Assembly: GCA_025352995.1 (NCBI GenBank) | Contig: JANXRN010000056.1 | Span: 1 to 36,642 of the forward strand | Direction of reading: 5' to 3' | Length of the DNA stretch: 36,642 nt | Source of the DNA: Acetobacteraceae bacterium | GTDB lineage: Bacteria; Pseudomonadota; Alphaproteobacteria; Acetobacterales; Acetobacteraceae | Shown here: positions 17,477 to 18,258 of the stretch, piece after piece | Layout of the letters: each line of letters begins with the position of its first letter | Position numbering within the stretch: the first letter of the stretch is position 1 | Notes under the pieces: generated by a model | Told to the model about the DNA's origin: nothing | The model's database searches: none | What the model saw: the letters and a program-made list of their open reading frames with translations, nothing else | Position numbers and translations under genes: made by a program

Positions 17477-17564
17477 CGGGCCAGCCCGCATGCATAAAGT
17501 CCACTTGCATAAATTCGGCCGCCACTCTTAGATTCCTGTCTATACGAGTCCATGGCAGGGCAAT

Positions 17565-17834
17565 ATGAGCAGCCTCAATGCGTTGAAAGCCGTCGAGATC
17601 GACCGGAATTTTGCAGCTTTCCTCAAAATGCTGCCGAATTTGGTCGGAGACTATGCCGGGCAATGGGCGCTATTGCGCCATGGATTTGTCATCGCATTTT
17701 ATCCGTCGGCGTTGGACGCCCAGATCGCAGGGAATATCAACTTTGATGATCAGATATTTTCGATCCAGCCGGTAGAGCAAGCCCCGGACGAATTGGGATA
17801 TTTTTCATATGCCATTAATCCAAGGACGCCATAA
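17565..17834 (+). CDS. Small conserved protein (possibly DUF5678-like) paired with the retropepsin gene
   Basis: 89 aa; 'LVGDYAGQWALLRHGFVIAFYPSALDAQIAGNINFDDQIFSIQPVEQ' resembles the 'GkWVAl..g.Iv...s..eA...g' layout of DUF5678-type proteins (recalled). Overlaps the next gene by 26 nt. Confidence 0.55.
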   Translation: MSSLNALKAVEIDRNFAAFLKMLPNLVGDYAGQWALLRHGFVIAFYPSALDAQIAGNINFDDQIFSIQPVEQAPDELGYFSYAINPRTP

Positions 17835-18258
17835 TGGGCGCGCCGCTGTCGTTCCGATCGCGATTATCGATGTTGCGAAATATCGCGGCCACAAATTTTC
17901 CAACGCGCCCGTGCTTCCCGGCACAAAGCCGTTCAGGGCGCTGATCGACACAGGGGCCACCTCGACAATGATTTCGCCTCGGGTCGTGTCATCACTCGGC
18001 CTGCAACAGGTGAATATGCGTCGATACAATGGCTTGGGCGGTCTATTCGATCGTCCGGCGTATTTGTTTCATGTCGCATTTTATCACGCGGTGCCGACGG
18101 CGCCTGCGGCTATCAACCCAATCAGCATTTGCTTAAAGGAAATCAATGGTGGGGCGTTGTCGGACGAAGACACGTTTGATGTTCTGCTCGGAATGGATGT
18201 CCTGAGAACCGGCAATCTTCGAGTGGATAAAGACGGAACATTCAGTTTCGAGTTTTAG
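17809..18258 (+). CDS. Retropepsin-like aspartyl protease
   Basis: 149 aa; 'FRALIDTGATSTMISPRVVSSLGL' (DTGA active-site loop) and 'DVLLGMDVLRTGNLRVDKDGTFSFEF' (hydrophobic-hydrophobic-Gly element). Confidence 0.78.
   Translation: MPLIQGRHNGRAAVVPIAIIDVAKYRGHKFSNAPVLPGTKPFRALIDTGATSTMISPRVVSSLGLQQVNMRRYNGLGGLFDRPAYLFHVAFYHAVPTAPAAINPISICLKEINGGALSDEDTFDVLLGMDVLRTGNLRVDKDGTFSFEF

Follow-up and report, generated by a model that had tools for sequence, protein, structure and literature searches.

A retropepsin-like protease gene overlapped by a small DUF5678-type partner gene in an Acetobacteraceae genome: a probable protease-regulator pair

The window, i.e., the whole stretch of 36,642 nucleotides of Acetobacteraceae DNA that was analysed, contains two short overlapping genes, a small upstream one (hereafter the partner) and a downstream one encoding a retropepsin-like aspartic protease (Table 1). 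Their originally predicted coordinates and overlap were confirmed, and the two genes occupy different reading frames. The length of the overlap varies among other pairs from about 8 to 32 nt; the constant feature is the position of the protease ATG at the partner Ser-His/Tyr-Ala/Val codons (TCx CAT Gxx), which was found in 19 of the 20 relatives shown, the exception being L042. A programmed frameshift fusion within the overlap was considered, and no fusion was seen. The pair is present in a single copy in its genome. As read from translations, the upstream neighbour encodes an acyl-CoA ligase, and a peptide ABC transporter operon in convergent orientation lies downstream. The segment is indeed GC-poor, as had been noted at the outset: the partner and protease genes have 49% and 53% G+C, respectively, and a third-position GC of 58-59% versus 74-79% in four flanking genes. 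Moreover, the partner was found in only one of 200 genomes of the order and was absent from the other 199, which, together with the low GC content, points to horizontal acquisition of the pair. No clear insertion repeats were found in its flanks, and promoter and terminator patterns yielded nothing informative.

Table 1. Positions of the two genes and their features in the window
Feature	Position	Strand	Basis
Shine-Dalgarno-like AGGG before partner start	17557..17560	+	anti-SD duplex energy
Partner gene, 89 aa, ATG, divergent DUF5678-type	17565..17834	+	homologues in paired loci
Partner N-terminal helix, residues 3-30 (predicted)	17571..17654	+	AlphaFold2 model, pLDDT about 81-93
Partner beta-beta-alpha-beta core, residues 34-69 (predicted), the DUF5678 part	17664..17771	+	model; DUF5678 matches span the core in relatives
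Partner conserved C-terminal tail, residues 70-83, VEQAPDELGYFSYA; family consensus VTDEPIDLGFFSHA	17772..17813	+	conservation
26-nt overlap; protease start codon within partner Tyr-Ala codons (TAT GCC)	17809..17834	+	
Retropepsin-like aspartic protease gene, 149 aa, ATG	17809..18258	+	Asp_protease_2 and gag-asp_proteas profile matches, model, Foldseek
Catalytic motif Asp-Thr-Gly-Ala, residues 47-50	17947..17958	+	D, T and G at least 90% conserved in 23 homologues
LLGMD (hydrophobic-hydrophobic-Gly-x-Asp), residues 126-130, psi-loop signature	18184..18198	+	G128 and D130 invariant in the same 23 homologues

The downstream product is a single-lobe clan AA retropepsin (MEROPS A2-like), as judged by its catalytic motif, psi-loop, profile matches and fold. 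It carries ALIDTGA at residues 44-50, with one D-[TS]-G-[AS] motif per chain, and matches the Pfam families Asp_protease_2 (E=3.2e-9) and gag-asp_proteas (E=8.1e-9), each above the cut-off; against NCBIfam TIGR02281 and TIGR03698 it scores 20.9 and 23.8 bits, far under their cut-offs (57-58 bits). When a profile of the protease family was compared with solved structures, yeast Ddi1 was the best match (E 1.8e-8), followed by retroviral proteases. The single-chain AlphaFold2 model, built from 23 sequences, reached a pLDDT of 86.9 and a pTM of 0.81, and its nearest Foldseek neighbours were Rickettsia APRc, FIV protease and Ddi1. Retropepsins are organised as homodimers, and because each chain has a single DTGA and a single LLG motif, the window protease is, by analogy, probably active as a homodimer too. 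It is taken to be cytoplasmic because no hydrophobic N-terminal stretch was seen. Altered catalytic motifs also occur beside intact partners: DTRA in L002:1495-1938 (-), DNGA in L051:4215-4664, and DTSA together with a frameshift in L050:4233-4622. Given the altered motifs in L002 and L051 and the frameshifted proteases of L036, L043 and L050, protease activity may be dispensable in places.

The partner is less easily classified. Its model shows a long helix, a beta hairpin, a helix and a strand, all at high confidence, followed by an unstructured tail in which pLDDT falls below 50 from residue 74 onward. Taken alone, the window partner matched nothing in Pfam (none at E <= 1), NCBIfam or PHROGs, and it did not reach the 23.2-bit cut-off of DUF5678 (PF18929). 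Its model had no match among PDB folds (best E 1.2), and a search of PDB sequences returned nothing useful; a Gag-capsid match was weak (E 0.97) and was dismissed. Members of the partner family do match DUF5678, albeit weakly, and two close relatives reach the curated cut-off, namely those of G722 (L046, Sphingobium terrigena; 26.2 bits) and G720 (L041; 23.2 bits, with neighbours included in frame). By sequence relationship, the window partner is thus assigned to a divergent branch of DUF5678. Typical DUF5678 members from Binatota, like the window family, also precede a D[TS]G protease; the window protein differs from typical members in its longer N-terminal helix, and its family ends in VTDEPIDLG.FSHA, whereas many typical members end in VPREED..CLL. 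Two genera of a single family additionally carry the partner domain fused N-terminally to a ParA/MipZ-type ATPase (L013:640-1710, L118:9215-10288 and L119:6204-6686, all on the minus strand); no protease was found on the contig pieces read, and the G124 copy is frame-broken. In a solo partner family with an NW[MI]xCCG[SG] end (L025, L026, L027 and L028 (L121:8085-8342)), a GGDEF-type gene precedes the partner gene by approx. 20 nt; L025 and L027 also have, opposite to the partner gene, a gene judged by eye to be Ppx/GppA-like.

The original prediction of a stand-alone retropepsin with an obligate small partner depended on the two genes occurring together elsewhere, and it is upheld by surveys conducted from both the protease and the DUF5678 side. 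In a protease-first survey of 230 genomes of the window's class (Alphaproteobacteria), all 12 strong protease homologues (E 5e-44 to 5e-35) were immediately preceded by the partner in the same orientation. The next match, in G127 (3e-18), was also paired, and one in G065 (2.5e-15, with an interrupted frame) was unpaired; 17 weaker clan AA matches had no partner within about 1.5 kb. A partner-anchored scan of GTDB contigs yielded 23 loci (Sphingomonadales, Rhizobium, Parvularculaceae, Binatia and others), in 21 of which a protease gene followed the partner (three of them the frameshifted ones listed above); the remaining two, L040 and L054, are decayed pairs. As the homologues in many genomes are likewise ordered and overlapping, the pair is not a chance arrangement. 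When Pfam DUF5678 was used as the starting point in genomes of Binatota, the phylum of a Binatia locus, 16 of 21 scorable DUF5678 genes were directly followed by a D[TS]G open reading frame, and those tested matched aspartyl protease families with scores on either side of the cut-off. Pairing in Binatota indicates that the association is old and wider than one class. One genome, G084, harbours five tandem diverged pairs (L123:88-5343, G084:C98) that are 37-90% identical to one another. In a Binatia-phylum genome, one pair (L077:1447-2249) was observed whose protease bears a C-terminal SEC-C motif.

The two start sites differ markedly in their predicted ribosome-binding strength. In the window, the anti-SD duplex energy is -6.0 kcal/mol at the partner start versus -4.0 at the protease start; mean values across loci are -8.3 kcal/mol for the partner, -3.4 for the protease and -1.9 for random sites. 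The partner signal was the stronger one in all 18 loci scored, 17 of which are valid (L043 was scored with a wrong protease coordinate). Since the partner has a good Shine-Dalgarno sequence and there is almost none at the protease start, protease synthesis is probably coupled to, and dependent on, translation of the partner. The translational coupling originally suggested by the overlap is therefore backed by two sequence features, i.e., the location of the protease ATG inside the partner's last codons and the weakness of the protease Shine-Dalgarno signal.

The C-terminal tail appears to be the part of the partner most closely linked to the protease. Conservation reaches 2.99 bits at residues 70-81 versus 2.22 for the hairpin and helix, although values for residues 65-74 are inflated because the locus scan was anchored on FS[IV]Q..T[DA] (residues 75-83 are unaffected), and the last Ser-His-Ala codons double as the protease ATG. 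Tail codons differ synonymously while the residues stay constant, which argues that selection acts on the protein there. In relatives without a neighbouring protease, the core is kept and the tail motif is lost or changed; these comprise the ParA/MipZ-type ATPase fusions (G228, G124), a solo protein (G059) and the solo CCG[SG]-ending family (G460, G489, G571, G586), all of which diverge from the paired proteins outside the tail too. A conserved, flexible tail that accompanies the protease has the character expected of a binding peptide.

Sequence work establishes the pair, its order, coupling signals and conservation, its exclusivity in the sampled genomes, and the correlation of the tail with the protease; what we infer is the binding of the two proteins, its site and its effect. 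For a pair that is obligate, co-translated and partner-first, with a tail that goes with the protease, the best explanation is that the partner serves as a dedicated regulatory subunit, either an inhibitor or an adaptor, and this role is favoured over that of an addictive toxin-antitoxin system. That the chromosomal module is a functionally obligate protease-regulator pair is given a probability of roughly 0.6. In the proposed mechanism, the partner would be translated first, from its good ribosome-binding site, and ribosomes ending the partner would reinitiate at the protease ATG within its last codons, so that the protease would be produced only where the partner is already present. The predicted helix-beta-beta-alpha-beta body and, above all, the flexible tail of the partner would then bind the protease, with the tail most likely extended in the substrate cleft or along the dimer edge. 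Acting in trans as an inhibitor or adaptor, the tail might hold the protease in a latent state, or keep it aimed, until the tail is displaced by a signal or target. Inhibition by insertion of the tail into the cleft is the more tentative part of this scheme.

Alternatively, the partner might be a dedicated substrate, cut by the protease within the tail (e.g., at Tyr79-Phe80) and acting as an effector once processed. SpoIIGA and pro-sigma-E, encoded in one operon, provide a precedent for such a relationship. The co-inheritance of the two genes would suit this role, as would the hydrophobic pair (usually Phe-Phe, Phe-Trp or Trp-Phe in the family) that lies beside a conserved Gly in a disordered but conserved tail. 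However, very little tail remains beyond the putative cut site, most of the conservation is found on its N-side (VTDEPIDLG), and a substrate-only role leaves the translational subordination of the protease gene unexplained; this interpretation is considered unlikely.

It is similarly improbable that the partner serves as a folding or assembly factor, i.e., a chaperone for retropepsin folding or dimerisation, rather than as a regulator. In favour of this role, the strong protease homologues are never without a partner, and the partner is made first. However, HIV protease needs no such factor. APRc also manages without such assistance (PMC4140852). A chaperone function does not on its own explain why this domain is also found fused to a ParA-type ATPase where there is no protease.

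The evolutionary behaviour of the pair bears on a further possibility, namely that the protease is a toxin, or a phage-defence effector, restrained by the partner and freed by stress or phage. Partner and protease are both under purifying selection in relatives, with dN/dS (NG86 values) of about 0.12 for each gene in L032/L033 and about 0.15 and 0.14 for the two genes in L038/L042. Their pairwise distances correlate (r = 0.74 for 29 pairs, with none of 2000 permutations as high), as is also expected from shared ancestry, and their trees have the main groups in common; these two observations suggest that the pairs move as units. In Sphingomonadales-type loci, the pair adjoins lolA and xthA: in ten of those scanned it is immediately upstream of them, and in one more (L044) it is inverted. 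Plasmid searches revealed no pair, and phage matches were distant ones only. A distant retropepsin on a cyanobacterial plasmid (L115:1784-2390, NZ_CP112876.1) overlaps an unrelated 72-aa upstream gene, which suggests that small partners may be exchangeable. Unequal decay (the protease broken and the partner intact in L016, L036, L043 and L050, never the reverse) was considered as a sign of toxicity but given little weight because the scan started from the partner, the protease gene is the longer of the two and the assemblies are mostly metagenomic.

Antitoxin-first order with coupling, patchy presence and low GC suggestive of transfer, the tandem pairs of G084 and the different small partner of the cyanobacterial protease are features that a toxin-antitoxin system could share. 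The protease also shows weak profile similarity to the PADLOC candidates PDC-M08B (4e-6 at best) and PDC-M52B, and a defence role is possible in view of the PDC-M08B similarity; however, there was no convincing PADLOC model match for the partner, and DUF5678-type proteins matched neither the PDC-M08 nor the PDC-M52 models. A search for PDC-M08B in 249 genomes of the window's phylum gave no match, and neither did its control. The mobile or plasmid distribution that is typical of, though not strictly required for, type II toxin-antitoxin systems was not observed. Stable Sphingomonadales synteny, purifying selection of both genes and the absence of plasmid and close phage matches argue against a typical addiction module, and the toxin-antitoxin-like role that had initially been envisaged is thus the least supported and quite unlikely.

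The regulatory reading can be extended beyond the window family. DUF5678 may represent a broadly distributed and hitherto overlooked class of proteins that regulate retropepsins in trans, in which the short C-terminal tail enters the active-site cleft, like a propeptide in trans, and the core is reusable on other effectors, e.g., ParA-type ATPases; this broader proposal is put forward as speculative. Nothing linking DUF5678 to proteases, and no description of the pair, was found in the open-access literature. Obligate co-translated pairing in more than one phylum offers the first functional hypothesis for the uncharacterised DUF5678 family and gives these proteases a likely regulator. Few bacterial retropepsins stand alone, and how such enzymes are controlled is poorly understood; the pair may provide a small and tractable model of the restraint of a one-lobe aspartic protease in the cell.

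Among known proteins, Ddi1 has the retroviral-protease-like domain that best matches the window protease by profile; it is eukaryotic and fused to ubiquitin-related domains, and, to our knowledge, it has no trans partner of the DUF5678 kind. Neither do we know of a DUF5678 partner for Rickettsia APRc (RC1339), which was the best fold match of the protease model (5c9f, E 1.6e-5, TM 0.56-0.63) at 18% identity and shares its single-lobe architecture with DTGA and LLG motifs. In contrast to the window protease, APRc is predicted to be membrane-anchored and self-processing (PMC4140852). The Pseudomonas proteases RimB and Rlo are also retropepsin-like and encoded with functional partners (PMC11957791, PMC12239564); their partners are RimA/RimK or RloB/RloC in place of the DUF5678 protein found here.
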